DNA of 64,000 bases, taken from the IMG/VR virus record IMGVR_UViG_3300021964_009390, positions 124,001 to 188,000 of that record; one strand, written 5' to 3'. This DNA comes from a virus. The notes beneath the pieces are model-generated. The model was not told the DNA's origin and made no database searches. It worked only from the letters and a program-made list of their open reading frames with translations. This document shows positions 1,485-58,891 of this stretch, in pieces. The position numbers and the translations under genes are program-made. Every line of letters starts with the position of its first letter. The first letter of the stretch is position 1.

Positions 1485-3087
1485 AAACAAACCGTTGTAA
1501 GAACCAACCCGGTAGTTTCTCTTTACATTTAGGTAGTACCCTGGATATCATACCGTCTAGTATGTATGTAGTTGAATAATCATCCTTAGATCTTGTACAT
1601 CTACCACAAGACTGTACTAATATATTTAACATTTTATTCTCATACCAGTCTGGGTCGGCTTCTAAAATGGTCTTAACCCGTTTGTCGTTAAACGGTAGAT
1701 AGGGTAGTTTCACTACAATTTGAAATCTGGCTAGATCGTCTTTTAAATCTACACCATGAGTTAGTGATGGTGACATCAATATTGTTGGTTCGTCAGACTG
1801 TTTATGTATGTTGATTATATCTTCATTTGTAACCCCGGGCTCTCTGTATACGAGCCGGTCACATTGAAGCGTTTCATATATAAATTGTGTTATATGATGT
1901 GAATGTGTATGTATCACACCCTTCTCGTCGCCATGATGAGATACTATCTCATTGATATTATCTACTATTTTAGGTAAAAATTTATCTATTGTATTTCTAC
2001 TCAAAGGGTATTTGCTAGAAACATATATTGGGGATTTCGCCGGAGGGAACTCAGACGGTATTTCTATATATTTATAATCTGTGATACCTAATGACTTTGC
2101 GAAGTTTTTGTGGTCCACGATAGTGGCACTCATCAGTAAAATTTTCTCACCGTTATCAAACAGCTGATTAGTTAAAGTGTCTATATGTAAAGGTGTCAGT
2201 CGTACCGTGGTATTGTTTTTTTCTACTATATATTCACAATTGTAAAAGTTGTCTGTACATAGTCGTACCTTGGCTAATAGTCTGTTGATATATGTATATT
2301 TGGATTGAGTTTTACTAGTCCATTTTGATTTTTTTCTCAATTGCTGTTGCAAATACATACGATGGTCATGTAATAAATTGTTCACATCATCTAACCACGA
2401 GTATACCGCCAATGGTTCACTTGACTTGAGTATAGGTAAAGACACCCCGCACCTTTTCGACACGTCATAATCTATAACACATGTGTTATGAGATACAATA
2501 TCGTCTTCTAGTTCGCTAGCTTCATCACATATTAAATATTGCCTTTGCTTGACATGTCCCGGTAGTTGCATATACATTTTATAATTCGTAACACCGTACT
2601 GACTAGTCAACAGTTTGTTTCTATCGTTATGATATGGACATTTACCAGACTCTCGATGCTGTGACAATATATGTCTTGGTATCACAGCAGATTCTATCTC
2701 AACATCCATGCTCGGGTCAATAGTACTCGTGTAGTTGCTTTTACCTTTAAGTGTGTCACATTCGAACAGCGCCACATACTGGTCTTGTAAAGCTTTGGTT
2801 ATTGTCAATGAAATAGCACCATGTGCTTGATCATGCTCGGTATGTATATATTGACCTGTCTGGTCAACCATAAAAGCTCGGTAAGAATTGATGTCCTCGT
2901 ACTTATATTCATCAATCTCTCGTGAGCTCTTCGCGAGGGTACTAGCGAAAAAACTCTTTCCGGAACCGGTCGGAGCATTCAGTATCACCGTATCATTATT
3001 TTTAAATGCAGCCTCTATCTTGTTTAATGTCTTAGACTGCAATGGGGTAGGCTGGTACCCTACCGGAAAGAAATTTAATATAGACAC
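1483..3087 (-). CDS. DinG/XPD-like superfamily 2 helicase
   Basis: A 534-residue SF2 helicase. Walker A APTGSGKS is at about residues 38-45, a DEAS box (Walker B) at 188-191, an LMSATI motif III near 320, a GVDLKDDL segment near 440, and a motif VI QSCGRCTR near 495. The layout resembles DinG/XPD helicases, which unwind DNA 5' to 3'. Only two cysteines (C110, C150) lie between Walker A and B, so a normal four-cysteine iron-sulfur cluster is not evident. The start is GTG at 3087, 6 nt after a near-perfect sigma-70 promoter, so it is expressed early although its neighbours are late tail genes. Confidence 0.8.
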   Translation of the reverse strand: MSILNFFPVGYQPTPLQSKTLNKIEAAFKNNDTVILNAPTGSGKSFFASTLAKSSREIDEYKYEDINSYRAFMVDQTGQYIHTEHDQAHGAISLTITKALQDQYVALFECDTLKGKSNYTSTIDPSMDVEIESAVIPRHILSQHRESGKCPYHNDRNKLLTSQYGVTNYKMYMQLPGHVKQRQYLICDEASELEDDIVSHNTCVIDYDVSKRCGVSLPILKSSEPLAVYSWLDDVNNLLHDHRMYLQQQLRKKSKWTSKTQSKYTYINRLLAKVRLCTDNFYNCEYIVEKNNTTVRLTPLHIDTLTNQLFDNGEKILLMSATIVDHKNFAKSLGITDYKYIEIPSEFPPAKSPIYVSSKYPLSRNTIDKFLPKIVDNINEIVSHHGDEKGVIHTHSHHITQFIYETLQCDRLVYREPGVTNEDIINIHKQSDEPTILMSPSLTHGVDLKDDLARFQIVVKLPYLPFNDKRVKTILEADPDWYENKMLNILVQSCGRCTRSKDDYSTTYILDGMISRVLPKCKEKLPGWFLQRFV

Positions 3088-3093
3088 ATTGGT

Positions 3094-3122
3094 ATTATAT
3101 TAATATTATACTATACTGTCAA
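3094..3122 (-). promoter_or_regulatory. Consensus sigma-70 early promoter before the helicase
   Basis: On the minus strand there is an exact TTGACA (3122-3117), a 17-nt spacer and an exact TATAAT (3099-3094), then 6 nt to the GTG at 3087. It is the best sigma-70 match in the window. A second TATAAT at 3110-3105 has no usable -35. Confidence 0.75.
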
Positions 3123-3456
3123 CTTGTAATACAGAATTATATAGTCGATGAGGTTTTTTCACAGGTAAATCATCTATTAATAGCTGTGTATGTATATTTT
3201 CATTACATAATGTTTTTAGTCTATAATCAAATACAATTTGCCGATGATCTGTATCAAAATAGTAATCGTATGGGTATGGAACTTCATATAATTTAGGTAT
3301 GTCATGTTGGTTAGTCACTGTGAATCCTATATAATGGCCTCGCTGCGCAACTAATAACAATTTTCCTTGACGTAGCGTTTTACCATTACATACAAACCTC
3401 ACATCATGTTGTATAAGTTCCATGCATACTTGTTCTATTTTTTCACTCAATAGCAT
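3106..3456 (-). CDS. Hypothetical protein, 116 residues
   Basis: Not recognised. The protein is soluble, starts MLLSEKIEQV with an amphipathic helix, and continues with beta-rich aromatic sequence (LYEVPYPYDYYFD near residue 78). It ends just upstream of the helicase promoter and starts one base after the stop of the WYL_2-like gene, so it belongs to the operon coming down from 5229. No catalytic motif is visible. Confidence 0.55.
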   Translation of the reverse strand: MLLSEKIEQVCMELIQHDVRFVCNGKTLRQGKLLLVAQRGHYIGFTVTNQHDIPKLYEVPYPYDYYFDTDHRQIVFDYRLKTLCNENIHTQLLIDDLPVKKPHRLYNSVLQVDSIV

Positions 3457-3457
3457 G

Positions 3458-3829
3458 TCAAGAGTTCATGAACTGAATTTTTTGAGATGTATCCATAGGT
3501 AATACATTTTCGTTAAAATATGTCCAAAACGTATCATCTCCCGGATACTGATTGAGTATAGTTGTGCTATCAGCTGGAATCATACGAAATGATTGCATCA
3601 TTATATCCCAGGCTAAACATAAATTTTTCGATCTAGGGTCGTACGGTAATTTGCTACCCCCAGGTAAATAATTTAGCACAGTTCGCCCATTCACACTATT
3701 CAGTACACTCTCGTCCAACGTACACAACATACGTCTAGTGATAGGGGCACCGGGTCTAGATCGGCGACGATTGAATCTAATGTCTACAACATTGTTGTTC
3801 AATATTGAATTTAATGTACCTTGGTTCAC
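3458..3829 (-). CDS. WYL_2-like small SH3-fold phage protein
   Basis: This 123-residue protein resembles the WYL_2 family of small proteins common in marine T4-like phages. The family pattern is a strand with VxxRFxR, an RxMxCTL motif (here RRMLCTL near residue 33), a spacer, then a WDixxxSFRxxPadS segment (LAWDIMMQSFRMIPADS near 87-103). Family function is unknown; a small nucleic-acid-binding or regulatory barrel is the usual guess. It shares one base (the A of a stop/start overlap) with the GroES-like gene upstream, implying coupled translation. Confidence 0.6.
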   Translation of the reverse strand: MNQGTLNSILNNNVVDIRFNRRRSRPGAPITRRMLCTLDESVLNSVNGRTVLNYLPGGSKLPYDPRSKNLCLAWDIMMQSFRMIPADSTTILNQYPGDDTFWTYFNENVLPMDTSQKIQFMNS

Positions 3830-4636: not shown

Positions 4637-5229
4637 TTAACTATCGTCTTGGTCGTCGCAAGAAACATATCATCATTAATATGGTAAAACATGTCTATTA
4701 TCTCGCGCATGAATTGACCAACCTGCATGTTGTTCAAATTAGTAGAAAATGCATGGTCTGGAGCACGATCACCCGCGGTTATGTTTATTCCGGTATGACC
4801 TAGTGTCACCCCGGATTTTACATATGTTATACTCACACTACATTTACCTTTAGGCTGACTTACACCGTTCTGCTCATGATCTTGATGTACGATCAGATCA
4901 TCACCATCCACCTCAATAGGGGCATTGTTTAAAAAACGTGAGCTCAACACATTAGCAATTTGTGTATTTAACAACCGTTGATACGCTACAGCCCCAAACG
5001 GGTCAGACAAGCACGGTATCTCCCACAAAAAATTTATCGCATCATCACTATATATGAACTCATTTTTCAATATATCTTCTGTATCAATCATACCATCTGC
5101 CTCTACAATCATTGGAGACCGGAAGGCAATAATGTTACCTATAGGTAATGTTTTTTCTCTAAAAAATTTATACGCGAATCTATCATGCAGCAGCGCACCA
5201 TCATAACACTCAATATCATTAATTATCAT
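4633..5229 (-). CDS. DUF366-like protein (biotin/lipoate-ligase-like fold)
   Basis: The 198-residue sequence follows the DUF366 pattern: YDGxxLxxxFAY near the start, IIAFRSPMIVEADGMIDTED near residues 34-53, a YSDDAINFLWEIP segment, then VDGDDLIVH and GKCSVSITY, ending in an AxxxNLNNMQVGQFMREI helix. The family is known mainly from archaea and is thought to share the biotin/lipoate ligase fold; its substrate is unknown. It is the first gene of a minus-strand unit (DUF366, gp62, GroES-like, WYL_2) headed by a sigma-70 promoter at 5237-5265, so it is expected early. Confidence 0.6.
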   Translation of the reverse strand: MIINDIECYDGALLHDRFAYKFFREKTLPIGNIIAFRSPMIVEADGMIDTEDILKNEFIYSDDAINFLWEIPCLSDPFGAVAYQRLLNTQIANVLSSRFLNNAPIEVDGDDLIVHQDHEQNGVSQPKGKCSVSITYVKSGVTLGHTGINITAGDRAPDHAFSTNLNNMQVGQFMREIIDMFYHINDDMFLATTKTIVK

Positions 5230-5236
5230 ACGATAT

Positions 5237-5265
5237 ATTATAGTATATTAAATCGTAGTTTTCAA
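5237..5265 (-). promoter_or_regulatory. Sigma-70-like early promoter before the DUF366/gp62 unit
   Basis: Minus strand TTGAAA (5265-5260), 17-nt spacer, TATAAT (5242-5237), then 7 nt to the ATG at 5229. The extended -10 reads TATACTATAAT, which recurs before uvsY, queC and gp32. Confidence 0.7.
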
Positions 5266-12256: not shown

Positions 12257-14868
12257 CTGTTAAATTTATATTGCTTTATTAGAGCTTGTTTCTTACCATT
12301 GTCTGTTTTAGTTCTACCATACGAGTTATCAACTATTCTATAGTATGATAACGGACCTTCCCAAGACTTCGCGATGTTTAAATTTGAATCTATACATCTT
12401 AACCACAAAGCCCAGTCTGCAATACTACCATATTTTTTCTCATCGAAGTAACCGACAATTTCATGTATCTCTCGGCGCCACACCGGGGCAGAGTGGCATG
12501 GGTTACACGTATTATTACTATTGCAGTTCCAGAAGTTTTCAATATGCAAAGGTTGACCTACACTATACTCATTAAACCACATATCGTTGTGTTTTTTCAC
12601 GTGTTCATTATATTTTTTTACGTAACTTTTACCAGCTACAACTGGAGCAAAAGCTATATCTGTTGCCGGTGAATTGGACAGGAAATCTATCATATACCGG
12701 GAAAAATCCGGGTCATGACGATCATCTAGATTGGCATTTGTTATATATAATCCGGTAGATTTTTTAATTCCTAATTCCCAACACTTATAAATACCTGGGT
12801 CTTCCTTTTTAGTGATGTTTATTATCCTTATATTATGGTGATTTTTTTCCAGGTCTGCGATCTTTTTTTGTGTTTTTTTACTATGTGAATCTTTTACACT
12901 CACAATTACCCATTCTAGCTCATCTGGATATTTTGAATTTTGGTTTTTAAAATCCTCACACAGATCATCAAAGTATTCATCTGCTTTATACAACGATGTC
13001 ACCCATGACAACATCACTGATTCAGATTTTTTTTCTAGTTTTTTTAAATCATATAATATTTTCTGGTTGAATGTCTGTTGAGATACGTGGGACTTATCTA
13101 AATTATGTAAATATTTATTAGTCCTTTCAACAAGACTAGTGAACTGATCGCTAGTCAGACTTTCAATATCTTTTACATTATCATAAAACATAGGGTAATC
13201 AATACCTATATACTGTTCGAAGCTCGGATGTCTATTCAACAGTACAGGTGTCTCGCATCTAATGCACTCTAACAACAGATTGCTAGCCGTAACATCGAAT
13301 GCATCCATATACAATATATTCTTTTCAAAAATTTTTATATACTCATCATTTGCTAGGTGTTTGATAAGCTCAACATTATACATGGATGATTTGATGATAT
13401 CTGTAAGGTTGCTGAAGTCTTTTTTGACTAGTAATCGTTTATGTATATTACCCGGTATTTTAATATCGTTAAAAGATTTTAAATTTCGCATCCACCAACC
13501 TATATGATATATTTGTTTATTTTTAGACTGTTTATACTGCTTGATGTCGAATCTAGTTTTTATGTCATCAGTTATAGGGTGATTAACTGAGACGATTTTA
13601 TTTTTAAGGAAAGGAAATTTTTTCAATATATCCGGTCGTGTCAAGTACTTTTTATGATTTCTAGAGACAGTATATATGTACTCAGCTTTTTGCATAAGCC
13701 GGAAATCACAATTTTTATAATATGTATCGTTACTGATTAACTCTGGTAGTGCATGCTGGACTAACAAACCATTAAAATTCCCCGGGGTTGTTTTAACCTG
13801 GTTGCTTAGTTCATCTATACTTTTGGGGGTTGAGCGCTTATATATAGTTTCCCATTGCTCGAAAGGTGGGTTGTGTACAAATGTTATTAATTTTATATCA
13901 TTATCTATAATAGAGTCCATCACCCATCTATTAGTTACCATGTCTCTACCCCATGTAGTAAGTTCTTCTAACCAAGGGTTAAAATATAGTGTATTTTTGT
14001 ACGTAAGTTTATCATATCCTCGATCGATTAACTCCTCATGCAAATGATGCATAGTTCCTTTCCAGCCAAAATAATGGGTACCATACCAAGAGCCTCCATG
14101 TGGTGATAGAATGATATTTTCACCAGTTATTTCCCAATTTTTTTGTATACTTTTTCCTGTATTTATACACACTCTACCCTCATGACGACCATATTTTATA
14201 TAATGTGCATACGCTAGCTGTGGTGTATCAAACCCAGCTGCTGTTACATCTGGATTGTTATACATGTAATATTCTGCATCAAAGCTATTTTTTAGTGTAT
14301 ATTTAATTAAATTCTCACCGGATTCATGTGCATGTACAAGTAGTCGATCATCCGATATATGATGAGATATACCGTTTAATAACCGATATGTTTTACTATC
14401 AAACTCCGGGTTAAGGTTGTAAAAATGCTCTCTAGACATTAATCGGTTTTCCTTCTCACCATACTTATAGTAATGTTGTGCAGCTTTACTAGGTGTATTG
14501 AAACCACCAGATACTATGTCTGGATAAGCGCGTATATAAAAATCTCGATCCAAATTGCCACCCACTAAATCTAAAGCGGATTTTTCTTCATGTGATTTAA
14601 TTAGAAATTGGTCACAAATGATACATTTTTTATACTCACAGTTCAGTAGTGTGTTGATTTGTTGTATTATCGTGTCGTCAATATTACCTGTAACTAGATT
14701 GGTACTATTGTATATTTTATAACTCGGAACTCCGGTAGATGATCTATCGTCATCGCTTGTAAATATTATACAGTCATTGTTGTTCTTTACATACTCAGTA
14801 ACATTAGTTGGAAGATTCTCTATAGAACTGACTCTAAATATTGTTACACCGTTACCATTCTTGGACAT
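12253..14868 (-). CDS. Large two-domain glycosyltransferase with YPDI/EGR repeats
   Basis: The biggest protein of the island (871 residues). Residues 1-95 are unassigned. Two copies of a short module lie at about 107-142 (FYIRAYPDI then YKYGEKENR) and 197-232 (YYMYNNPDV then IKYGRHEGR). Residues about 250-630 look like a GT-B domain (SPHGGSWYG, FVHNPPFEQW, ECIRCETPVLLNRHP). Residues about 638-871 form a GT2-like GT-A domain (VMLSWVTSLYKADEYF, EDPGIYKCWELGI, ITNANLDDRHDPDF). Two transferases in one chain suggest alternating addition of two sugars. The ATG follows an AATAAATA late box by 6 nt. Confidence 0.75.
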   Translation of the reverse strand: MSKNGNGVTIFRVSSIENLPTNVTEYVKNNNDCIIFTSDDDRSSTGVPSYKIYNSTNLVTGNIDDTIIQQINTLLNCEYKKCIICDQFLIKSHEEKSALDLVGGNLDRDFYIRAYPDIVSGGFNTPSKAAQHYYKYGEKENRLMSREHFYNLNPEFDSKTYRLLNGISHHISDDRLLVHAHESGENLIKYTLKNSFDAEYYMYNNPDVTAAGFDTPQLAYAHYIKYGRHEGRVCINTGKSIQKNWEITGENIILSPHGGSWYGTHYFGWKGTMHHLHEELIDRGYDKLTYKNTLYFNPWLEELTTWGRDMVTNRWVMDSIIDNDIKLITFVHNPPFEQWETIYKRSTPKSIDELSNQVKTTPGNFNGLLVQHALPELISNDTYYKNCDFRLMQKAEYIYTVSRNHKKYLTRPDILKKFPFLKNKIVSVNHPITDDIKTRFDIKQYKQSKNKQIYHIGWWMRNLKSFNDIKIPGNIHKRLLVKKDFSNLTDIIKSSMYNVELIKHLANDEYIKIFEKNILYMDAFDVTASNLLLECIRCETPVLLNRHPSFEQYIGIDYPMFYDNVKDIESLTSDQFTSLVERTNKYLHNLDKSHVSQQTFNQKILYDLKKLEKKSESVMLSWVTSLYKADEYFDDLCEDFKNQNSKYPDELEWVIVSVKDSHSKKTQKKIADLEKNHHNIRIINITKKEDPGIYKCWELGIKKSTGLYITNANLDDRHDPDFSRYMIDFLSNSPATDIAFAPVVAGKSYVKKYNEHVKKHNDMWFNEYSVGQPLHIENFWNCNSNNTCNPCHSAPVWRREIHEIVGYFDEKKYGSIADWALWLRCIDSNLNIAKSWEGPLSYYRIVDNSYGRTKTDNGKKQALIKQYKFNR

Positions 14869-14874
14869 CTGAAT

Positions 14875-14882
14875 TATTTATT
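14875..14882 (-). promoter_or_regulatory. T4-type late promoter box before the large glycosyltransferase
   Basis: AATAAATA on the minus strand, 6 nt before the ATG at 14868. An overlapping CATAAATA (14886-14879) is also present, so the region reads as a doubled late box. Confidence 0.55.
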
Positions 14883-19982: not shown

Positions 19983-19985
19983 ATA
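19978..19985 (+). promoter_or_regulatory. Perfect T4 late promoter TATAAATA
   Basis: An exact TATAAATA, 5 nt before the ATG at 19991. It overlaps the stop codon of the glycosyltransferase gene. With T4 spacing, transcription would start at the A of the ATG. Confidence 0.8.
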
Positions 19986-19990
19986 ATAAC

Positions 19991-41520: not shown

Positions 41521-41549
41521 TTGATATATTCACATATATACTCTATAAT
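41521..41549 (+). promoter_or_regulatory. Sigma-70-like early promoter before gp43
   Basis: TTGATA (41521-41526), 17-nt spacer, TATAAT (41544-41549), then 6 nt to the GTG at 41556. Confidence 0.72.
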
Positions 41550-41555
41550 TAGAGT

Positions 41556-44162
41556 GTGTATAGGAATATAATTTACGACGCTAAAAACGAAACGTGTAAA
41601 CTCTTCACGTGGGACAACTCTGGAAACCGGGTGTGTTATGACACGAGTTTCAACCCGTATGTGTACTATGAAACTAATGGTAAATCTAACGGTAAGAGCA
41701 TATTCAATACCGCGGTAAAAAAACGATCATTCCGGACACAATACGATCGATACAAATTTGTAAAAGACTGCGGTGTAAAAAGGGTATTTGAAAATATACC
41801 TAGTGAACAACAATTTTTAATAGATCAGTACTGGGAAAAAAACGAATCTCCGGAATTCACAGAAAATCCTTTGAAGGTATTATTTATAGACATTGAAACA
41901 TACAGCCCAGATTCATTTCCAGATGTAGATAACCCCTCTCACCCAATCAATGTAGTAACCATATACGATACATTACAAAATAAATTTTATTCTTGGGGTA
42001 CCAAACAATACGATACTACAGATATTGAAACACCCGGTGGTAGCATTGTTAAAAAAGACATATTATACTATCATTGCAAAACAGAAGTTGAGATGCTACG
42101 TCGCTTCTTGGATTATATAAAAAATGATTACCCGGATATCATAACTGGTTGGAATAGTGAATTATTTGACATACCATACATAATTTCACGAATGGGTCGT
42201 ATCTTGGATGAGAATGAATATAAACAACTGAGCCCTGTAGGTGAAGTGTTCTGCCGTGAGATCGCCGGTCAGTTTGGCAAGAGCCGTTTCCGGTGGTATA
42301 TAAAAGGTGTTTCTAGTTTAGATTACCTAGATATATACAAGAAATTCAGCATGGGTCTCCGGGAGAATTACAAACTCGACACCATTGCACAGTTCGAACT
42401 AGGTGATAAAAAAATAGACTATGGCGGTATGAATCTAGCTCAATTAGCAGATGAAAATTGGAAAACATTCGTAGACTACAACATACAAGACGTAAACCTA
42501 CTTGTCCGGATGGAAGAGAAGTTGCAGTACCTTAAACTGCTGAGAATGTTGGCGTATGTGGGACTATCACCACTAGAAAGCGCCATGGGGACATTAACTG
42601 TAATCACAGGTGCATCCGTCATACAAGCACGTAAAGACGGCTATGTAATACCAACATTTATAAAAGAAAACACAAAAGATGGTAAATACGAAGGAGCGTA
42701 TGTAGGAGAACCAGAGCGTGGTTTTCAACAAGACATTGTAAGTTTTGATGCTAACAGTCTATATCCTAGTACCATGATAACACTGAATTTGTCACCGGAA
42801 ACTAAAATAGGTTCTGTTGTAGAGAAAACCCCGGATCATATAACAGTGAAGCATGTGAACGGTAAGTTATTCAATTTATCACACGATAAATTCTTAAAAT
42901 TCATCAAAAAAGAAAAAATAGCTATAACAAAAGCTAAAGCACTGTTTAGCCAAAAAACAAAAGGCATCATACCTAAAATTGTAGACAAGCTGTATGCGCA
43001 ACGTGTTGAGTTCAAAAAGGAATTGGATAGAACACGCCGTGAGTTATCAAAACTTGATCCCGAAACATCAGAATATCAAAACAAAAAAAATGAATCTGAA
43101 ACTTGGTGGGTAAAACAATATACAGTAAAAATATTGATCAACAGTATATACGGTTACTTCGGTAACAAATATGCACCTATGGGAGACAGTGACATCGCGC
43201 GAAGCATAACATTAACTGGCCAAGCTGTTATCAAGCAATCAAATAAAATACTGTATGATTATATAAAACAAATGACAGGTAATGACAACTTACGTGTTGA
43301 AGATGTAGTCAAATATAATGATACGGACTCAAGCTACATTAGTATAAAATGTATAAATGACAGCAAATCTCTTGAGCTGTGTGAATCCGGTAAAGTTGCT
43401 GATCATACATATAAAATAGTACAAGACATTGAGGATCATTTGAACGTGGAGATTACTAAATGGGCTCAACGTAATTTAAATAGTCACGATCCCCGGTTCG
43501 TTTTCAAACGAGAGTGTATAGCAGATGTAGGTATGTTTCTAGAAAAAAAGAGATATGTTCTACATGTGTTAGATGATGAAGGTATACCTGTTGATAAGTT
43601 CAAGTACACCGGTGTAGAGGTAGTGAGAACCACCATACCCGAACCTGTGAAGCCGTATATTAAGAAAATAATCGAAACAATGCTCACCACTCGAAACCTA
43701 GGTGAAACCAACAAGCTGTTGCATGAAACATACGATATATTCAAGAGTTTGGAAGTAGAAGACATCGCTTTCGCGATGGGTTGTAAGGAATATGATAAAT
43801 ATGCCAGTAGATGTGATGAGTTTAACACGTGCAAAGGTATGCCGATCCATGTGAAAGCTAGTTATATACACAACAAAATCTTAGAAAAATTAAATATTGA
43901 GAACAAATATGAATCTATCGGTAATGGTGACAAGGTGAGATACTTGTATGTACAACAACCGAACAGATACGGGGTGAATGCCATAGGTTACAAGTACTAT
44001 TATCCGGATGAATTCAAAGAAATATTCAAAGTGGATCGAGAATTAATGTTTGACAAGATTGTATATAGTATCATCGAAAGATTTTACGATTGTGTGAAAT
44101 GGAAAGCAAAAAAACCTGGCATGGCAGTACAGACTGATTTATTTGAACTGTTCTCTACATGA
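41556..44162 (+). CDS. 43: gp43 family B DNA polymerase
   Basis: Replicative DNA polymerase with proofreading exonuclease, 868 residues. Exonuclease I is LFIDIETYS near 108-116, Exo II IITGWNSELFDIPYI near 195-209 and Exo III YNIQDVNLLVRME near 308-320. Polymerase motif A is SFDANSLYPSTMI near 396-408, motif B ILINSIYGYFGNKYAP near 526-541 and motif C YNDTDSSYIS near 587-596. The start is GTG, 6 nt after an early promoter. It works with gp45, gp44/62, gp41/61 and gp32, all but gp44 encoded in this window. Confidence 0.96.
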   Translation: MYRNIIYDAKNETCKLFTWDNSGNRVCYDTSFNPYVYYETNGKSNGKSIFNTAVKKRSFRTQYDRYKFVKDCGVKRVFENIPSEQQFLIDQYWEKNESPEFTENPLKVLFIDIETYSPDSFPDVDNPSHPINVVTIYDTLQNKFYSWGTKQYDTTDIETPGGSIVKKDILYYHCKTEVEMLRRFLDYIKNDYPDIITGWNSELFDIPYIISRMGRILDENEYKQLSPVGEVFCREIAGQFGKSRFRWYIKGVSSLDYLDIYKKFSMGLRENYKLDTIAQFELGDKKIDYGGMNLAQLADENWKTFVDYNIQDVNLLVRMEEKLQYLKLLRMLAYVGLSPLESAMGTLTVITGASVIQARKDGYVIPTFIKENTKDGKYEGAYVGEPERGFQQDIVSFDANSLYPSTMITLNLSPETKIGSVVEKTPDHITVKHVNGKLFNLSHDKFLKFIKKEKIAITKAKALFSQKTKGIIPKIVDKLYAQRVEFKKELDRTRRELSKLDPETSEYQNKKNESETWWVKQYTVKILINSIYGYFGNKYAPMGDSDIARSITLTGQAVIKQSNKILYDYIKQMTGNDNLRVEDVVKYNDTDSSYISIKCINDSKSLELCESGKVADHTYKIVQDIEDHLNVEITKWAQRNLNSHDPRFVFKRECIADVGMFLEKKRYVLHVLDDEGIPVDKFKYTGVEVVRTTIPEPVKPYIKKIIETMLTTRNLGETNKLLHETYDIFKSLEVEDIAFAMGCKEYDKYASRCDEFNTCKGMPIHVKASYIHNKILEKLNIENKYESIGNGDKVRYLYVQQPNRYGVNAIGYKYYYPDEFKEIFKVDRELMFDKIVYSIIERFYDCVKWKAKKPGMAVQTDLFELFST

Positions 44163-44178: not shown

Positions 44179-44208
44179 TTGAATATATGTGGATTTTTGT
44201 CATATAAT
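44179..44208 (+). promoter_or_regulatory. Sigma-70-like promoter before the uvsX unit
   Basis: TTGAAT (44179-44184), 18-nt spacer, TATAAT (44203-44208), 16 nt to the ATG at 44225. Here a short leader is expected, unlike most promoters in the window. Confidence 0.5.
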
Positions 44209-44224
44209 ATTATATCATATATAC

Positions 44225-44656
44225 ATGAGCTTAAATTTAAGAGTAATCGTTGACGCCGCCGGCAGAACCATCATTGGAGAACATGATAATGAAACAGATC
44301 AGTCTATTTCATTGAAAAATCCCGCGACTTTGTTTATACAACCTAATCAACAAACTGGACAACTAGCAGTACAGTTGATACCTTTCTTTTTTAGAGAGTT
44401 TGTTGAAGAAGAGAAACGACCAGAAGGAGTCAGCTGGACATTCGACAAATCCTCGCTCGCAACTTCAGAGCAGTTCGGTTTAGACAACAGATTGTTGGAC
44501 CAATACGAAAAAATGATGACCAAAGAAGCCAATACAAACCCACCACCTATTGAAGATACTGAAGCTTTCGGCCCAGCTGCCGGAAAAGCAAAAGAAGTGA
44601 AATTGTTTGATGAAACTGCCGAAAAAGCAGAAACAGTTGAGCCAGTAGATGGGTAA
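44225..44656 (+). CDS. Conserved small phage protein upstream of uvsX
   Basis: A 143-residue protein starting MSLNLRVIVDAAGRTIIGEH. The first 75 residues look like a small beta barrel (RVIVDAAG, SLKNPATLFIQP, AVQLIPFFF), the pattern of a conserved gene that often precedes uvsX in marine T4-like phages and is sometimes described as Sm/Hfq-like. The last 50 residues are acidic and Lys/Glu-rich. The frame opens at 44189, but the ATG at 44225 is the natural start. It overlaps uvsX by 8 nt. Function unknown. Confidence 0.6.
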   Translation: MSLNLRVIVDAAGRTIIGEHDNETDQSISLKNPATLFIQPNQQTGQLAVQLIPFFFREFVEEEKRPEGVSWTFDKSSLATSEQFGLDNRLLDQYEKMMTKEANTNPPPIEDTEAFGPAAGKAKEVKLFDETAEKAETVEPVDG

Positions 44657-45713: not shown

Positions 45714-47101
45714 TTGATAGGTCTGTTAGCCCATCCGGGTCTCCATAGTATATCTTCTTTGATAGTAGGAGCACCGGCCATTTTCCATGACGGTGTAGCG
45801 TCTGGTATCCCATCCCCATTAACATCCCAGTTCATTTGAGGCTGTGCTGGTTGAGCAGGTGCTGTAGCACCGGGTTGAGCAGGTTGTGTAGCAGCATCTC
45901 CGCCACCACCAGCTCCACTCATCATTGAAGATACTTTGCTGATACCATCACCTAGAGCACCTAAACCAACACCTACAGCCCCACCGGTATGTCCTCGAGA
46001 TAAAACATCCTTGTCTGTAGCCGTTTGTTTCAAAGCTTCCATTGGCTCTAGACCTTGAGCTCTAAGCTCTTTATATTTTTGAAAACCAGCTAAACCACCA
46101 GCAGCAGCAAAACCTGCCCCGTACCGGGCAATAATCATAGGTAAAGCAGCTCCCATCGCCAAGCTAGCTGCCCCTAATATACCGACAGCAGCTGTTTTAG
46201 TTAAGTTGGGATTTTCCTTAACCCATCCCATAATTTTCTTCATCATGCCTTGCTTTTCACCACCGGCCGCGGCTGGTTGCTCTTCTTTGTTACCAAAAAT
46301 TCTATCATGCCCCATCCGGTATTTTTCACTACTATCACCAGCTTGCTGCGAACCGTCTATTTTTTGGTTCTCATTATCATCATACTGTTGAAGCTCTGCA
46401 TCAGTAGGATTATTCGGGTCTAATTGCCCCGCAGGCATCGGTTTGTTTGCCACATCCGGTGCTTGCGTCTGTTGTGCTTGTGCCTGTTGATCATTATAAC
46501 CTTGTTTGAAACCACCTGCAGCATCTTTCGCGCCAGTGGCAATAGCTTGTCCAGCTTTTTTAGCTCCTTTACCAATTGCTGTACCAACTTTTCCGAGACC
46601 TTTGGCAATGTTACCGAGTAACCCTTCATTATGTAAATATAAAATATGCTCGCGAATCATCTCCTTGTATTCATCTACTCCCTCGTTGACTGTTTGCGGT
46701 TCCGGTGAATTAGCTATTTGATTCTCTACCTGACCAGCCCCCTCTTCATCTAGCGCTTGATCTAACGCTTGGGGCCCTTCTTGAGCTGCTGTTGTGACTT
46801 TGACCAAAGTATCTGGATCATTTGCCTTCAACCATTCTATAGCCTTCTGTATAACTGGTTGTAACATCTTATCGTTAACTGTTTGAGCGATGTTTTGCAC
46901 TCCGGTTTTAGCTGCTCCTACAGCTTTACCGGCCAGATTACCCAAGGTTCCCATGAGACCCTCTTCTATTAAAATTTGTTCCACCAGTTGTGCTGTCAAT
47001 TCAGTATCATACTGGTAACCCTCAGCAAAAATGCGTCTGACACGCTGTGTCCTGGCACGTCTCTCAAAACTTTCGAAAATTAAATGATTGTCTCTGTTCA
47101 T
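45710..47101 (-). CDS. Large late protein with amphipathic repeats and hydrophobic segment
   Basis: A 463-residue protein. MNRDNHLIFESFERRARTQ at the start carries an I-F-E site, and another leader-like stretch follows (RRIFAEGYQ). Two similar amphipathic segments follow an EGLxG start: EGLMGTLGNLAGKAVGAAK near 47-65 and EGLLGNIAKGLGKVGTAIG near 158-176. Residues about 305-345 are hydrophobic (AAVGILGAASLAMGAALP). The middle is Gln/Ala-rich and the end Pro/Ala-rich with a DVNGDGIPD motif. It is probably packaged, perhaps acting on membranes during DNA entry; that is inference. It lies alone on the minus strand between early genes. Confidence 0.6.
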   Translation of the reverse strand: MNRDNHLIFESFERRARTQRVRRIFAEGYQYDTELTAQLVEQILIEEGLMGTLGNLAGKAVGAAKTGVQNIAQTVNDKMLQPVIQKAIEWLKANDPDTLVKVTTAAQEGPQALDQALDEEGAGQVENQIANSPEPQTVNEGVDEYKEMIREHILYLHNEGLLGNIAKGLGKVGTAIGKGAKKAGQAIATGAKDAAGGFKQGYNDQQAQAQQTQAPDVANKPMPAGQLDPNNPTDAELQQYDDNENQKIDGSQQAGDSSEKYRMGHDRIFGNKEEQPAAAGGEKQGMMKKIMGWVKENPNLTKTAAVGILGAASLAMGAALPMIIARYGAGFAAAGGLAGFQKYKELRAQGLEPMEALKQTATDKDVLSRGHTGGAVGVGLGALGDGISKVSSMMSGAGGGGDAATQPAQPGATAPAQPAQPQMNWDVNGDGIPDATPSWKMAGAPTIKEDILWRPGWANRPIN

Positions 47102-47104
47102 AGC

Positions 47105-47133
47105 TTGAATTATTTATGTTAGTATACTATAAT
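47105..47133 (+). promoter_or_regulatory. Sigma-70-like early promoter before queC
   Basis: TTGAAT (47105-47110), 17-nt spacer, TATAAT (47128-47133), then 5 nt to the ATG at 47139. It overlaps the oppositely directed late box at 47111-47118. Confidence 0.72.
47111..47118 (-). promoter_or_regulatory. T4-type late promoter box (CATAAATA)
   Basis: CATAAATA on the minus strand, 9 nt before the ATG at 47101. It lies between the -35 and -10 of the queC promoter, so early and late use may exclude each other. Confidence 0.6.
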
Positions 47134-47138
47134 TATGT

Positions 47139-47849
47139 ATGAAAAAATGCATAATCCCGGTCAGCGGTGGTATAGACTCATCAACCATACTGTATTATAC
47201 ACACAAATCACGCAAGGATTTTGATGAAATACATACAGTCACTTTTGATTATGGTCAGAGGCATAGCAAAGAGATTGAACATGCCGAATTGATAACCAAA
47301 AATGTCAGCACCAGTCACAAAGTTTTAGATGTAACATTTTTAAAAAACATTATAACGTCTAGCTCATTGACCAATGATAGTATAGATGTAGCAAAAACTG
47401 CAGATGTACTAGGTGACCCACAAACCGTCAATTATGTACCTAACAGAAACATGATCTTACTATCCATTTGTACTGGTTATGCGGAGAGTATCGGAGCCAG
47501 CGTTGTGTACCATGGCGCCGCACAAGTTGATAGTGAGGCTGGTTATTGGGATGGTACTCAAGAGTTTATTAGTTGCATGAACCTAGTGAACAGTTTGAAC
47601 AGACGAGATCGGGTGACTATTGAAGCACCTCTGTTACAAATGTCAAAACAACAAATAATTAAACTAGGTGTAGATAGTGATTTGGATTTCAGTAAAACGT
47701 GGACCTGTTATGAAGGTGGTACTAAAGCATGTGGTAGATGCACCGCATGCAGTAGCAGAATCAAAGGATTCGTAGATAATAAATTAATTGACCCAGTGGA
47801 GTATGAAATAGATATACCATGGGACAAATACAACTGCGAGAGACTGTAA
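47139..47849 (+). CDS. queC: 7-cyano-7-deazaguanine synthase (QueC)
   Basis: An ATP-dependent enzyme converting 7-carboxy-7-deazaguanine to preQ0. This PP-loop protein of 236 residues has VSGGIDSSTI at 8-17, TFDYGQRHSKEIEHA near 35-49, VNYVPNRNMILLSI near 97-110 and GAAQVDSEAGYWDG near 126-139. Zinc cysteines are C190, C198, C201 and C204 (CGRCTAC). These are all standard for QueC. The gene is followed after one base by a glutamine amidotransferase, an arrangement that in some phages is a single Gat-QueC fusion. Confidence 0.94.
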   Translation: MKKCIIPVSGGIDSSTILYYTHKSRKDFDEIHTVTFDYGQRHSKEIEHAELITKNVSTSHKVLDVTFLKNIITSSSLTNDSIDVAKTADVLGDPQTVNYVPNRNMILLSICTGYAESIGASVVYHGAAQVDSEAGYWDGTQEFISCMNLVNSLNRRDRVTIEAPLLQMSKQQIIKLGVDSDLDFSKTWTCYEGGTKACGRCTACSSRIKGFVDNKLIDPVEYEIDIPWDKYNCERL

Positions 47850-49226: not shown

Positions 49227-49240
49227 CAATACCTTATAAT
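49212..49240 (+). promoter_or_regulatory. Sigma-70-like early promoter before gp41
   Basis: TTGTAT (49212-49217), 17-nt spacer, TATAAT (49235-49240), then 6 nt to the ATG at 49247. The -35 lies inside the end of the glycosyltransferase gene. Confidence 0.65.
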
Positions 49241-49246
49241 ACTCAC

Positions 49247-50569
49247 ATGATAGGTATAGACGAGCAGTTATTTGAGCACGTGCTCATATACAACTGTATG
49301 ACAGATGAAAGGTATCTAGCTAGTGTGATAGATTATCTCAAACCGGAGCATATCAAAGACTCTAACATTAAGCAGACATACAATTTGTTAGTAGACTTTT
49401 ACAATGATCACAGTGAGTTACCAAGCTCTACAGAAATTAAAACACGTTGTGATAATGACGATTTAAAAGCCGCAGTCCGGATCACTGTGAGTTACATCAA
49501 GAATATCGATAAAAACTATAATAAAGATGAATTGTATAAAAACACAGAACAGTTCATTAAGGAACGTGCAGTGTATAGTACCTTGATGGAGGTTGTAGAT
49601 CAAGGCTCTTCCGGGAGTTTAGAGCCGGCAGATCTATTAACTAAATTTGAATCTGCATGTAACATTAATTTGAATGTTGATGTAGGTGTAAATTATTTTG
49701 AAGATATCGACCGGCATGTAGACGATATAAATAGAGAAGAGAAGTACGTGAGTACCGGTTGGCAATGGCTTGATAAAAAACTCAATGGGGGTTTTGTAGA
49801 AACTGGCCGGGCATTGTATGTTTTCGCTGGAGAGACTAATGTAGGTAAAAGTATATTGCTAGGTAATATAGCTACTAACTTATGTAAGCAGGGTAAAAAT
49901 GTGTTGTTAGTTTCATTAGAAATGTCAGAGATGCTATACTCTAAGAGGTTGAGCTCAAACATAGCACAGGTACCTATAAATGAGACTCATTTAAGTGTAG
50001 AATATTTGAAAGAATCTATTAAAAATTTTAAGAACACTCACAAAGATTGTTCTTTGATCGTCAAAGAGTTTCCTCCTAGTACCGTGACACCTCAACAACT
50101 AACAGCATATATTAATAAGTTATGCCAAACAGTGATGCGCCCAGACGCAATAGTACTAGATTATATCAACCTGTTGAAAGGTCCACCTGGTACAAACAGT
50201 TATGAACAAATTAAAAAGGTAACTGAGAATGTAAGAGCCATGTCATATAAATTTGAATGCCCGGTCATCACCGCAACTCAGTTAAACCGTTCTGGTTACA
50301 ACGAGACTGACCCGGGATTGGATACAGTCGGAGAAAGTTATGGTATGGGAGCAACAGCAGATTGTGTGGTGAGTATATGGCAGCGAGATGAAGATGCTGA
50401 ATTGAATGTAATCAATTTAGGTATGATGAAAAACCGGTTCGGTCCTAACTTCGGTACATGTGCGATGGATATAGACTATGGTACTTTGACAGTCACAGAA
50501 CAAGAAAACGTGAACGAAACAGAACAGATGAATGAAACTATCGGTACCCTATCTATATTGAGCAATTAA
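49247..50569 (+). CDS. 41: gp41 replicative helicase (DnaB-like)
   Basis: A hexameric 5'-3' helicase of the replisome, 440 residues. It has an N-terminal helical domain to about 160, then STGWQWLDKKLNGGF near 167-181, Walker A FAGETNVGKSILLGN near 193-207 and VSLEMSEMLYSKRL near 222-235. Walker B AIVLDYINLLKGP lies near 301-313 and ITATQLNRSGYNE near 341-353. Layout and motifs match T4 gp41 and other DnaB-family helicases. The partner primase gp61 is at 57842-58891. Confidence 0.92.
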   Translation: MIGIDEQLFEHVLIYNCMTDERYLASVIDYLKPEHIKDSNIKQTYNLLVDFYNDHSELPSSTEIKTRCDNDDLKAAVRITVSYIKNIDKNYNKDELYKNTEQFIKERAVYSTLMEVVDQGSSGSLEPADLLTKFESACNINLNVDVGVNYFEDIDRHVDDINREEKYVSTGWQWLDKKLNGGFVETGRALYVFAGETNVGKSILLGNIATNLCKQGKNVLLVSLEMSEMLYSKRLSSNIAQVPINETHLSVEYLKESIKNFKNTHKDCSLIVKEFPPSTVTPQQLTAYINKLCQTVMRPDAIVLDYINLLKGPPGTNSYEQIKKVTENVRAMSYKFECPVITATQLNRSGYNETDPGLDTVGESYGMGATADCVVSIWQRDEDAELNVINLGMMKNRFGPNFGTCAMDIDYGTLTVTEQENVNETEQMNETIGTLSILSN

Positions 50570-52201: not shown

Positions 52202-52497
52202 TGAACATGTATAGAGACAGTACAGTCGATCCGGTGCAGTCTCTGTATGATAAGGATTTAGAACATACATTTTATAGTTTTTGCAGTTTTGTATGTATGT
52301 CAACAAACAAAAAACAAAACATAGCTAATATATTTTTATATGTATTGGAGAATCAAGAAATTTTAAACCTATACATGGAACTAGGAGACCACTCAACAAA
52401 GTATGACGCCATCCGGAGTTTTTTAACTATTGAACCATCTTTACAAAAAAGCAAATATATAAAAAGATATATAAACAAAAACGTTGAAACAAATTAA
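52201..52497 (+). CDS. Hypothetical protein before gp32, 98 residues
   Basis: A 98-residue helical protein (MNMYRDSTVDPVQSLYD at the start) with a basic end. A frame opens at 52150, but the ATG at 52201 overlaps the DHH gene stop by one base and is chosen. In T4, the region upstream of gene 32 holds 33 and 59; this protein does not visibly match either, but its place suggests a replication or transcription helper. Confidence 0.5.
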   Translation: MNMYRDSTVDPVQSLYDKDLEHTFYSFCSFVCMSTNKKQNIANIFLYVLENQEILNLYMELGDHSTKYDAIRSFLTIEPSLQKSKYIKRYINKNVETN

Positions 52498-52512
52498 ACA
52501 ATATACTATAAT
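52484..52512 (+). promoter_or_regulatory. Sigma-70-like promoter before gp32
   Basis: TTGAAA (52484-52489), 17-nt spacer, TATAAT (52507-52512), then 14 nt to the ATG at 52527. The A-rich 14-nt leader is one of the few in the window long enough for control of gp32 translation. Confidence 0.65.
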
Positions 52513-52526
52513 AAGAAAATAAAATT

Positions 52527-53414
52527 ATGAGCACATTCACAACAAGCATGTTCGATTCTATCAAAGAATCACTTTCGAAAGCACCATCATCCGGATTCAA
52601 GGATGTTTTAAGATTCAAACCAGGTACCTCGTGTGAGTTGAGGCTGTTACCTAATGTAAAAAAACCTCAAAATACATTTTACCATTACTACACATATGGC
52701 TGGGAAAGCTTCGCAACTGGTCAATATATAAATGTGGTGTCACCGCAAACTGTAGGAGAACGATGCCCAGTATCAGAGGCACGTTATCAACTCCGGCAAC
52801 GAGGCGGTGCTGAAGAGCAAGAAAAATCCAGCAAGGTTTTGAGGAGAGAGCAATGGCTAGTCAACACATATGTTATAAGTCACAATGAAGAACCAGAAAA
52901 CAATGACAGTGTAAAAATCTTAAGATACGGTAAACAATTACACAAGATTATAACTGATGCAATTGAAGGAGAAGATGCAGACCAATTTGGTGCTAAAGTA
53001 TTTGATCTGTCTGATGAAGGGTGTACTTTTCGAGTAAAATGCGACAAACAAGGTGATTTTCCAACATATGTCGCTAGTAAATTTTTGATTCCTGGATCAA
53101 TCGCCGGACTGGCCCCAGCAGATCATGAAAAAATATATGAACAGGTACATGAACTTGACGATGTGTTTCCTATAAAATCGTATGATGAAATACAAGAAAT
53201 TGTAGATGAACATTTGTACTGCCGGAGTACAACTTCAGTCACTGTAGCGACAGAGTCAGTGTCAAAAACAACAAGTGATACAGACACTGACCTTGATGAA
53301 GATGTCCCTATGGACTTTCCGGAAAAAGAGACACCGAAACAGTCTAAAAAGAAAGAACCGGAAGTTGATATAGACATACCAGATGATTTGTTAGAAGGTT
53401 TGGATGATCTGTAA
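52527..53414 (+). CDS. 32: gp32 single-stranded DNA-binding protein
   Basis: A 295-residue SSB of the T4 type. The core has FKPGTSCELRLLPNVKKPQN near 31-50, FYHYYTYGWES near 52-62, PQTVGERCPVSEARYQL near 73-89 and WLVNTYVISHNEEPEN near 110-125. The tail from about 240 is acidic (DTDLDEDVPMDFPEKE) and ends DDLLEGLDDL, the tail that binds partner proteins. It coats single-stranded DNA and coordinates polymerase, helicase and UvsX/UvsY. The stop overlaps the next ATG (TAATG). Confidence 0.9.
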   Translation: MSTFTTSMFDSIKESLSKAPSSGFKDVLRFKPGTSCELRLLPNVKKPQNTFYHYYTYGWESFATGQYINVVSPQTVGERCPVSEARYQLRQRGGAEEQEKSSKVLRREQWLVNTYVISHNEEPENNDSVKILRYGKQLHKIITDAIEGEDADQFGAKVFDLSDEGCTFRVKCDKQGDFPTYVASKFLIPGSIAGLAPADHEKIYEQVHELDDVFPIKSYDEIQEIVDEHLYCRSTTSVTVATESVSKTTSDTDTDLDEDVPMDFPEKETPKQSKKKEPEVDIDIPDDLLEGLDDL

Positions 53415-54073
53415 TGGCTGAAAAAACTGATAAAAAACCACCGGTAGAATCTACACCACCGGAACCTAAGCTCCATCCAGAACCACCACCAGTAGGAGCT
53501 GCAGAGCAAAACGGGTACCGGAAAGCGAGGGAAAATATATCTACTCCAGAAGATGTACAGTTAATTGAAAATTTTATCGGTACAATTTATGGAGATGCAA
53601 AACGTATTGACAAAGCTAACATAGGTAGTAATCAGTTTACACAAGGTTTAAAGTTTGATGCTAAAAAACAAATTTTAGATGTACGTAACACAGTAAGTAC
53701 TTCACCAAATCAAGCAAACCCACCCACCATGCCAAGCAATTCTACACCACCACCTGTACAACCACAGCAAGCAATGCCCTTACCACTAGTCCCGGGTCAA
53801 CAAATAGATTTCCCACCACAGCAATCTGTAGCATCTCCTGGTGACTCTTTGATACTCAAACACGAAATCGATCAGATCAAAGAACAAGTGAAAGAGATAA
53901 AAAAATTGTACGACGAATTTTTCAAATTGAAAGTGGTCAAAGGTAAATGGGTTATAAAAACTAAAGAAAAAGAACAAACCGCGCCCAGTGTAGCCAAAGC
54001 GTGGAACATTATAAATAAACTGTTGCGTAACAAAACAACCGATATTAATATAGTTTATACAGAAAATGAATAA
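53414..54073 (+). CDS. Pro-rich hypothetical protein between gp32 and gp45
   Basis: A 219-residue protein. Residues 1-35 and 95-145 are Pro-rich and probably disordered. Residues 45-75 read like a small helical unit (DVQLIENFIGTIYGDAKRI), and residues 150-185 form a coiled coil (LKHEIDQIKEQVKEIKKLYDE). The end is basic. Not recognised. Being coupled to gp32 and overlapping gp45 by 8 nt, it may link replisome parts; that is inference. Confidence 0.5.
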   Translation: MAEKTDKKPPVESTPPEPKLHPEPPPVGAAEQNGYRKARENISTPEDVQLIENFIGTIYGDAKRIDKANIGSNQFTQGLKFDAKKQILDVRNTVSTSPNQANPPTMPSNSTPPPVQPQQAMPLPLVPGQQIDFPPQQSVASPGDSLILKHEIDQIKEQVKEIKKLYDEFFKLKVVKGKWVIKTKEKEQTAPSVAKAWNIINKLLRNKTTDINIVYTENE

Positions 54074-54797
54074 ACTATTAATTGACGATACATCGTGTTT
54101 TGTAAACACGTTTTTGTCATCTATAACTAAAGTAACTGAAGATTGTATTTTAGATATAACAGATGACAAATTCACATGCTTGAGCGCCACATCTGACGGT
54201 ACGCTAGTACAACTAGTTGAGATGCATAATGACAATAAATTCATACAGACATGCAACATTCCAGATATAAAGAGATTACATAAAATATTGGGGTGTGTAC
54301 CACAGGAATTACCAACTGAACTCAAAGTCACACAAAACAGTATATCGTACAGTTCATCCGCCACTAGATTTAAATTTTATCTACTAGAGGATGGAATATT
54401 ATCCACCCCTGCTGTAAGTGTAGAAAAAATAAAAAAACTAGAATATGATATAGAATTTACTGTACCATATGACAAATTGACAGAGCTAGTCAAAGGTAGT
54501 ACATTTTCAAACGAAACTGAAAAGATGTACATATACACTGACGAGAACAATTCTGTGTATGGGGAGTTGACCGATCGAGAAAAGCCTAATGTAGACAGCT
54601 TTGCAGTACAATTACATCAAGGAATAGACAACTCCATATCCCCATTACCATTTAATTTTGAAAACATTCGAATATTGAGCAGCTCTAGATGTAATGAATA
54701 TAAATTTTCAATAAACTCTCAATTAGGTGTAGTGAAAGTGGATATATCACGTAACAAGTGCTATATATCTTATATAATTTCAACACTATTAAAGTAA
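54066..54797 (+). CDS. 45: gp45 sliding clamp
   Basis: A processivity clamp, 243 residues. The fold pattern is that of phage clamps: an LxxxLSSITKVTEDCILDITDD start, FTCLSATSDGTLVQLVEM near 38-55, CNIPDIKRLHKIL near 66-78 and a second domain from about 120 with DIEFTVPYDKLTELVKG. T4 gp45 is 228 residues and trimeric. It also activates late transcription with gp55. gp62, its loader subunit, is at 4235-4636. Confidence 0.85.
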   Translation: MNKLLIDDTSCFVNTFLSSITKVTEDCILDITDDKFTCLSATSDGTLVQLVEMHNDNKFIQTCNIPDIKRLHKILGCVPQELPTELKVTQNSISYSSSATRFKFYLLEDGILSTPAVSVEKIKKLEYDIEFTVPYDKLTELVKGSTFSNETEKMYIYTDENNSVYGELTDREKPNVDSFAVQLHQGIDNSISPLPFNFENIRILSSSRCNEYKFSINSQLGVVKVDISRNKCYISYIISTLLK

Positions 54798-57593: not shown

Positions 57594-57600
57594 ACTTTAC

Positions 57601-57798
57601 ATGAGCGACGAAATAAAATATACTGACAGGGTAGAACCTCGAATGATCGCGTCACCGTATGATGGTAACACTGTGAAACCAAAATTGATCACTAAAGTGA
57701 TGAATGGTTATCAAATTACAGAAGCCCATTGGCATTGCCCGACTACTGGTAGATTCATTCAAAAAGGCACTGTTGAGATTAAAAAAATAAAAAAATAA
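57601..57798 (+). CDS. Small late protein, 65 residues
   Basis: A 65-residue protein (MSDEIKYTDRVEPRMIASP) with a Trp/His/Cys segment (EAHWHCPTTGRFIQKG near 43-58) and a Lys-rich end. It has its own late promoter between the early RNase H and gp61 genes. Not recognised; late timing suggests a small virion protein. Confidence 0.55.
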   Translation: MSDEIKYTDRVEPRMIASPYDGNTVKPKLITKVMNGYQITEAHWHCPTTGRFIQKGTVEIKKIKK

Positions 57799-57806
57799 TT
57801 GTAGTG

Positions 57807-57835
57807 TTGCCAGGTAATATGTTGTAAGCTATAAT
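57807..57835 (+). promoter_or_regulatory. Sigma-70-like early promoter before gp61
   Basis: TTGCCA (57807-57812), 17-nt spacer, TATAAT (57830-57835), then 6 nt to the ATG at 57842. Confidence 0.7.
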
Positions 57836-57841
57836 TCAACT

Positions 57842-58891
57842 ATGTTGAGTTTGTCTGATCAGTATGTTGTAGAGAAGTTTTGCCAATATGGTGGCTATCC
57901 ATCATTCAACAAACGATCAAACGCATGGATGGCTGGGTGCCCTATGTGTAGGGAAGGGAAGAGCTGGGGTAAGAAGCGGAGGTTGTACTACAAAATTGAC
58001 AAAAACTATTTATTTTGTTTCAATTGCGGGTGGAAAGGAGGGACAATCGAGTTTATAAAACATGTGACTGGTATGTCATTCAATGAGATAATGAATGAAA
58101 ACAACAACTATGATACGTCTGATGTTGTAGAAGTAGATTCAAAGAAACCATCTATCACCACCCCTAGCGAGACACTACCAGCTGATTCAATAAATTTATT
58201 CGACGATTCACAAACCAGCTGGTGGCTATCACAGCGGTCTGAAGATAGTAAAGTCATCCACGATTGTATAGATTATATAAAGACGCGAAAACTAAATGTG
58301 GCCATAAACAAACCAATGTCAATATGGGTCAGCTTGAGCGATTATACACATAAAAACAGACTGACATTGCCGTTCTATTCAACAGATGGAAAAATTATAT
58401 TCTATCAAACCAGAGCCATGTATAAAGATGAATCCAAGCCCAAGTATTTGAGTAAATCCGGAAGCGAAAAGAGTATTTTTAATATAAACAATATCGTGTC
58501 AGATGTTGACAACATATATTTATTTGAAGGACCAATAGATAGCTGTTTTGTCAAAAATGGTGTAGCAGTTGCCGGTGTTACAAATGGCCCGAGCCAAGAT
58601 TTGAACAGCTTGCAGCAGCAACAATTGAACGATTATAGATTGTATGGTAAAACTTGGGTGCTAGATTCACAATGGTTGGATGACACCAGTTTGCATAAGA
58701 CAAAAATGTTAGCAGATCAAGGTGAGCATGTGTTCATATGGCCTGAATCTATTGGTAGATCGTATAAGGATTTAAATGATTTGTGTACGAACAAAAATTT
58801 ACCAGGTATAGGTCACAAATTTGTAGACAGACACACCTACACGGGTATGAAAGCCAAGCTGATGCTCAAGACGATCAGCTCTAGTCGTTAG
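57842..58891 (+). CDS. 61: gp61 DNA primase
   Basis: A primase of 349 residues making RNA primers with gp41. The N-terminal zinc finger has GCPMCREG near 36-43 and FCFNCGWKGG near 57-66. The TOPRIM core has IYLFEGPIDSCFVKNGVAVAGVTNG near 223-247 and TWVLDSQWLDD near 275-285. LPFYSTDGKIIFYQTR near 175-190 is a conserved strand pair. The layout is that of T4 gp61. The stop overlaps the convergent late gene by 11 bp. Confidence 0.88.
   Translation: MLSLSDQYVVEKFCQYGGYPSFNKRSNAWMAGCPMCREGKSWGKKRRLYYKIDKNYLFCFNCGWKGGTIEFIKHVTGMSFNEIMNENNNYDTSDVVEVDSKKPSITTPSETLPADSINLFDDSQTSWWLSQRSEDSKVIHDCIDYIKTRKLNVAINKPMSIWVSLSDYTHKNRLTLPFYSTDGKIIFYQTRAMYKDESKPKYLSKSGSEKSIFNINNIVSDVDNIYLFEGPIDSCFVKNGVAVAGVTNGPSQDLNSLQQQQLNDYRLYGKTWVLDSQWLDDTSLHKTKMLADQGEHVFIWPESIGRSYKDLNDLCTNKNLPGIGHKFVDRHTYTGMKAKLMLKTISSSR

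Follow-up and report, generated by a model that had tools for sequence, protein, structure and literature searches.

The 64,000-nucleotide (nt) window considered here spans bases 124001-188000 of IMGVR_UViG_3300021964_009390, an uncultured virus record 222,461 bases long, and the subject is promoter-like boxes that directly precede start codons: TATAAT, and TAAATA, the core of the phage T4 late promoter. Positions are those of the window unless 'record' is stated. A coding-potential method blind to promoters called 271 genes in the whole record, where homologs of gp43, gp41, gp32, primase, UvsX, UvsY, gp55, gp23, the tail sheath (gp18), the tail tube (gp19) and ribonucleotide reductase (RNR) are recognised; judged by this core set, the phage belongs with the T4-like phages (Straboviridae and kin). 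Similarity to cultured phages is low (gp43 31% identical, the closest cultured gp23 about 34%), and megablast against known phages gave no match.

How close is TATAAT to the start codon? In the eight genes for which a previous reading of the window from its letters alone (the sequence-only reading) claimed a gap of 5-7 nt, i.e., those for a helicase, the DUF366 protein, queD, folE, gp43, queC, gp41 and gp61, that gap is found throughout and is mostly 6. TTGA-N-TATAAT occurs 12 times in the window against 3.4 expected, a number reached in none of 100 shuffles. Over the 271 genes of the whole record TATAAT stands at gap 6 in 12, against an average of 0.64 per position (p 3e-4, column-dinucleotide null), and AAGTTG at gap 32, which corresponds to the -35 element, is also among the strongest word-position pairs without any motif having been preset. 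As expected of sigma70 promoters, TTG is 16-18 bp from the box in 16 of the 24 adjacent TATAAT of the record (counts 3, 12 and 1), and it is at exactly 17 bp in 12 of these 24 and in 25 of 77 from relatives. This sharp preference, confined to the early class, argues that the boxes are promoters rather than translation signals. When the promoter sites are taken as the starting point instead of the genes, TTGN3-N17-TATAAT lies between genes at 17 sites, and at 12 of these a gene start follows 4-9 nt after the end of the site; at the nine sites inside coding regions none does. Polymerase, helicases, primase, folE, queC, queD and thymidylate kinase carry early-type adjacent boxes, though the class is impure, with a baseplate wedge gene (record 209262) having TATAAT at 6.

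While the sequence-only reading, framed in terms of early promoters, was right about early spacing, it understated the pattern and missed a larger class. TAAATA at gap 5 is the strongest word-position pair of all, present in 31 of 271 genes against an average of 1.1 per position (p 5e-11, same null), its shifted neighbours also rank among the strongest pairs, and words of the same composition as the boxes give no comparable peak. The boxes are of TATAAATA type, with the T4 late core TAAATA preceded by A and, before that, by A or C, and the phage has the cognate gp55 (E=2e-27 in its own record), a protein also present in eight of eight relatives. A gp45-like sliding clamp was matched in PHROG; a search of the record with a four-sequence gp45 profile gave no match. 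Late-type adjacent boxes precede the genes for the head protease, tail-tube paralogs, baseplate proteins and the gp15-like protein, and this class too is impure, as the RNR small subunit gene carries one. An upstream TTG is mostly without fixed position in the late boxes of relatives. About 15 of the record's own 57 late boxes carry TTG 15-16 nt upstream, e.g., at record 31646(-), and these may act as dual or middle promoters.

Table 1. Boxes and transcription-related genes in the window; distances are from the box to the start codon.
Feature	Position	Strand	Details
Late box	1471..1482	-	core 1477-1482; 5 nt to GTG of gp15-like tail sheath stabiliser
Promoter TTGACA-N17-TATAAT	3087..3122	-	-10 at 3094-3099; 6 nt to GTG of helicase (1483-3087)
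Promoter TTGAAA-N17-TATAAT	5229..5265	-	-10 at 5237-5242; 7 nt to ATG of DUF366 gene (PF04017)
Late box	14868..14880	-	core 14875-14880; 6 nt to ATG of 871-residue glycosyltransferase-domain protein
Late box TATAAATA	19980..19993	+	core 19980-19985; 5 nt to ATG 19991
Promoter TTGAAT-N17-TATAAT	24525..24560	-	-10 at 24532-24537; 6 nt to ATG of queD
Late box ATAAATA	28219..28231	-	core 28226-28231; 6 nt to ATG 28219; divergent folE 57 nt away
Promoter TTGAAT-N17-TATAAT	28242..28279	+	-10 at 28265-28270; 6 nt to ATG of folE (28277)
Late box	31283..31294	-	core 31289-31294; 5 nt to ATG of 422-residue protein (phrog_455)
Late box	33551..33562	-	core 33557-33562; 5 nt to ATG
Late box	34648..34659	-	core 34654-34659; 5 nt to ATG of PDDEXK nuclease
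uvsY TATAAT	34904..34920	+	8 nt to ATG; gap varies 8-19 in relatives
gp55 late sigma factor gene	36673..37188	+	automatic start 36808 too short; homology from near 36769
Promoter TTGATA-N17-TATAAT	41521..41558	+	-10 at 41544-41549; 6 nt to GTG of gp43 (41556-44162)
Promoter region of gene before uvsX	44179..44227	+	TATCAT 6 nt from ATG 44225; TATAAT at 16
Late box	47101..47116	-	core 47111-47116; 9 nt to ATG 47101; divergent queC 37 nt away
Promoter TTGAAT-N17-TATAAT	47105..47141	+	-10 at 47128-47133; 5 nt to ATG of queC (47139)
TATAAT with weak -35 TTGTAT	49235..49249	+	6 nt to ATG of gp41 (49247)
gp32 promoter TTGAAA-N17-TATAAT	52484..52529	+	14 nt to ATG; true exception
gp45-like sliding clamp (in T4, activates late transcription)	54066..54797	+	PHROG match, E=2.9e-7
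TATAAT with -35 TTGCCA	57830..57844	+	6 nt to ATG of primase gp61 (57842)

Relatives were drawn from IMG/VR, which holds at least about 600 for gp23, of which 80 were kept, and 22 were added for gp43; some of the pools include near-identical contigs. Whether the spacing is fixed in the rest of the genome and in relatives had been set beforehand as a refutation test, and it is fixed in both, with de novo peaks of TAAATA at 5 and TATAAT at 6 in the phage's own genome and in two relative pools. Upstream of gp43, TTG-N17-TATAAT-N6/7-RTG is retained in most of 21 relatives while the letters drift, helicase homologs keep the GTG start and have TATAAT, exact or with one mismatch, for the most part at 6, gp15-like homologs have a late box at 5-7, and the core, with at most one mismatch, is at 4-5 nt in eight homologs of the PDDEXK nuclease. 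Pooling homologs at the same tolerance gives 48 at gap 6 for the early class and 52 at gap 5 for the late. With near-duplicate upstream regions removed and starts set by protein alignment, early homologs have TATAAT at 6 in 18 of 55 and TAAATA at 5 in none, and late homologs TAAATA at 5 in 26 of 44 and TATAAT at 6 in none, these counts covering five late and nine early genes of the phage and hence few gene families. Upstream identity of the homologs is 0.33-0.38, yet box type and distance are retained.

What would such distances mean for the transcript? Relative to its first nucleotide (+1), the sigma70 -10 element spans -12 to -7. The T4 late box is 8 bp numbered from -13, and thus covers -13 to -6 (PMC2988020). 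The offset of 1 nt between the two peaks follows from this difference in register: one element ending at -7 and the other at -6, gaps of 6 and 5 would both make +1 coincide with the A of ATG. Shine-Dalgarno (SD) words are found at 10% in the phage against a background of 9%, compared with 50% against 4% in T4. Further, 11 of 21 divergent gene pairs have their start codons 13-40 nt from each other, as do none of 20 pairs in T4, Syn33, phiM12 and Cr30; the tight pairs leave no room for leaders. Some divergent starts, in AT-rich DNA, are as little as 13-17 nt apart (record 52874(-)/52888(+) and 54383(-)/54397(+), window 16617(-)/16635(+)), so that the promoter of one gene must extend into the coding sequence of the other. 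Coupling of later genes by overlaps, also claimed by the sequence-only reading, is borne out: 95 same-strand genes begin less than 5 nt from, or overlap, the previous gene, and seven of them have an adjacent box. A relatives-only matrix places an adjacent box before 49-58 of the 140 first genes and before 15-17 of the 36 short-gap genes, with 0-4 in shifted control windows (1-4 for the first genes), and before 3-4 of the 95 coupled genes; on T4 it finds none of 60 adjacent, and 5-7 at about 22-32 nt.

From the spacing with its statistics and conservation, the distance to the -35, SD words at background level, gp55 and the clamp homolog, we infer the +1 positions, promoter activity and the mode of ribosome initiation, and in all probability many first genes of transcription units, early and late, yield leaderless or nearly leaderless mRNAs by default. 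Host RNA polymerase with its main sigma factor would start at TTGA-N17-TATAAT promoters and, later, polymerase with phage gp55 (plus the gp45 clamp) would start at (T/C)ATAAATA boxes, with +1 at the start-codon A or no more than 1-3 nt from it, i.e., 6 nt past TATAAT and 5 nt past TAAATA. Ribosomes would initiate on the 5′-terminal AUG or GUG, many downstream genes would be translated by coupling via stop/start overlaps, and a few genes would keep leaders, with SD for gp23, tail sheath and tail tube, and A-rich for gp32.

The leadered genes deserve attention in their own right. The sequence-only reading listed uvsX, uvsY and gp32 as exceptions with gaps of 8-16 nt, which stands for gp32 (14) and uvsY (8), the latter probably being short-leadered, and not for the uvsX operon, where a conserved element is at 6. 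Relatives conserve TATCAT or TATAAT at that distance with a TTG -35, TATCAT is at 6 here too, and the TATAAT at 16 is probably a decoy. The gp32 leader is A-rich and G-poor here and in relatives. T4 gp32 represses its own translation via leader RNA (PMC3014915), which makes a similar cause for the leader here plausible by analogy. gp23 has an SD leader (AAGGAG), with SD also in most relatives among the matches listed, and tail sheath and tail tube have the late core 18-20 nt upstream followed by SD (AGGAAGG or AGGAG). These three are among the most abundant T4 virion proteins. The exceptions look functional. Between gp22 and gp23, before the SD, a conserved element, a possible hairpin or GGTCGACA-type, is present at record 4087-4149 and in gp23 relatives; it may serve the major head gene as a structured leader, and an Rfam scan of the gp23 leader region gave no match.

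Several points weigh against a leaderless default. Exact boxes precede 55 of 140 first genes, and in 73 of the 140 both an exact box and an SD word are lacking, so that alternative promoters, misassigned starts or readthrough are frequent. Some box-adjacent genes may also be transcribed from promoters farther upstream, where the gap is 7-9 nt the mRNA would retain a leader a few nt long, and gene starts were assigned automatically, with gp55 at least called short. The same 73 genes, together with the scope for readthrough within same-strand clusters, would suit a situation in which the adjacent promoters are real but secondary and most protein comes from leadered readthrough transcripts. We regard it as unlikely: with SD at background a leadered transcript lacks a recognised ribosome site, and the coding strand of tight divergent pairs is unreachable by readthrough.

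Could the boxes instead be AT-rich signals for translation initiation, i.e., unstructured A/U-rich sites of ribosome entry, with the real promoters farther upstream? SD-poor genomes such as those of Bacteroidetes have start regions of low GC content without SD (PMC3155529), and composition near starts alone lifts the expectation for TAAATA at gap 5 to 3-7. However, a ribosome entry site accounts neither for a TTG at exactly 17 bp from early boxes, in the phage and relatives alike, nor for late boxes that match the T4 late core in a phage with gp55; words of the same composition do not peak, and coupled genes, which also need translation, seldom have a box. This alternative is quite improbable. 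That it is all chance, or an artefact of gene calling, is scarcely credible. Automatic start choice and the commonness of AT-rich words in such DNA lend it something, but the same caller gives zero at both gaps on equally AT-rich T4 (upstream GC 0.32 against 0.34), the spacing is kept in homologs whose starts came from protein homology and not from the caller, and the count taken from the promoter sites contradicts it.

Is so much leaderless expression then unusual for a T4-like phage, as the sequence-only reading had it? Compared with T4, the cyanophage Syn33, phiM12 and Cr30 (control phages were taken as stretches of 50-150 kb, not always whole) it is, since the same gene caller finds in them no TAAATA at gap 5 and no TATAAT at gap 6; the assertion needs tempering for the cultured phages HTVC008M (late class) and RM378, which have weaker forms. 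T4 shares the late-promoter core, gp55 and sigma70 early promoters, but places most of its boxes 16-35 nt upstream, with leaders that contain an SD, and none at 5 or 6 nt; its strongest words are SD words only. Its gp43 and gp32 are controlled through leader RNA operators (PMC3014915), an arrangement impossible for gp43 on the leaderless mRNA predicted here. Among 177 genes of the Pelagibacter phage HTVC008M, a T4-like isolate, 11 have TAAATA at 5 where 0.6 would be expected, and many of the 11 are virion genes, but SD is otherwise used (46%) and there is no early-class peak; no report of leaderless genes in this phage was found in the literature. Being cultured, it is a practical test system. 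The Rhodothermus phage RM378, a Far-T4 isolate, has, in 15 of 93 genes, a TTATTTAA-type (TATTTA-containing) box no more than ~12 nt from the ATG, with a TATTTA peak at 7, and differs in box sequence and in having SD in 22% of genes.

Outside the T4-like phages, lytic Thermus phage phiYS40 reportedly has a single -10-like element adjoining the gene, and we know of no gp55-type late promoter in it. Its middle and late transcripts are mostly leaderless by experiment (Sevostyanova 2007, via PMC3594737), whereas here leaderless use is predicted for the early class too. The first 50 kb of phiYS40, scanned for exact hexamers, gave no TATAAT or TAAATA peak, with SD common, and as the phiYS40 leaderless promoters were not reproduced the scan is no positive control. 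In the 'TA-led' leaderless genes of Actinobacteria and Deinococcus-Thermus a -10 hexamer directly precedes the open reading frame (PMC3160421, PMC12340547), and the deduction of leaderless mRNA from -10 position, which is the same as that made here, has been tested with reporter mutants in Deinococcus. Their hallmark is TAnnnT about 10-12 bp upstream in place of SD (PMC3160421), and with TATAAT at gap 6 the first T lies 12 nt from the start. Those genes are, however, cellular, about 20-40% of the total, and served by the host sigma factor only, without a second, phage-encoded sigma class. While the kind of expression is thus already known, the use of both sigma classes with near-absent SD in a T4-like lineage appears new, and a search of open-licence literature turned up no description of leaderless genes in T4-like phages.

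Translational control through leaders has its textbook example in T4, with its SD sequences and its gp32 and gp43 operators, and a large environmental lineage in which promoters for two sigma factors abut the start codon suggests that such control is dispensable. One may go further, on a proposal for which belief and doubt are evenly balanced, that a widespread T4-like lineage abandoned the SD-led default, with both programmes leaderless, SD leaders kept only for very high output (gp23, sheath and tube), and presence of a leader setting the level of expression. The arrangement yields exact +1 predictions and better start annotation for uncultured phages, and it hints that the hosts translate leaderless mRNA well. 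WhiB was sought in 18 records and none was found, so there is no sign of an actinobacterial host; a gp23 search of the genome_contigs database gave no relative, and a search for IF3 found none. Literature guesses at Far-T4 hosts disagree (PMC4360716, PMC7198788). Some relatives encode ribosomal protein bS21, which is in four of 13 records searched, the phage's own record being without it. The record begins (1-60) and finishes (222402-222461) in short tandem repeats, which probably arose in assembly, and queD (24525), folE (28277), queC (47139) and the DUF366 gene (5229) suggest 7-deazaguanine synthesis and possibly DNA modification.

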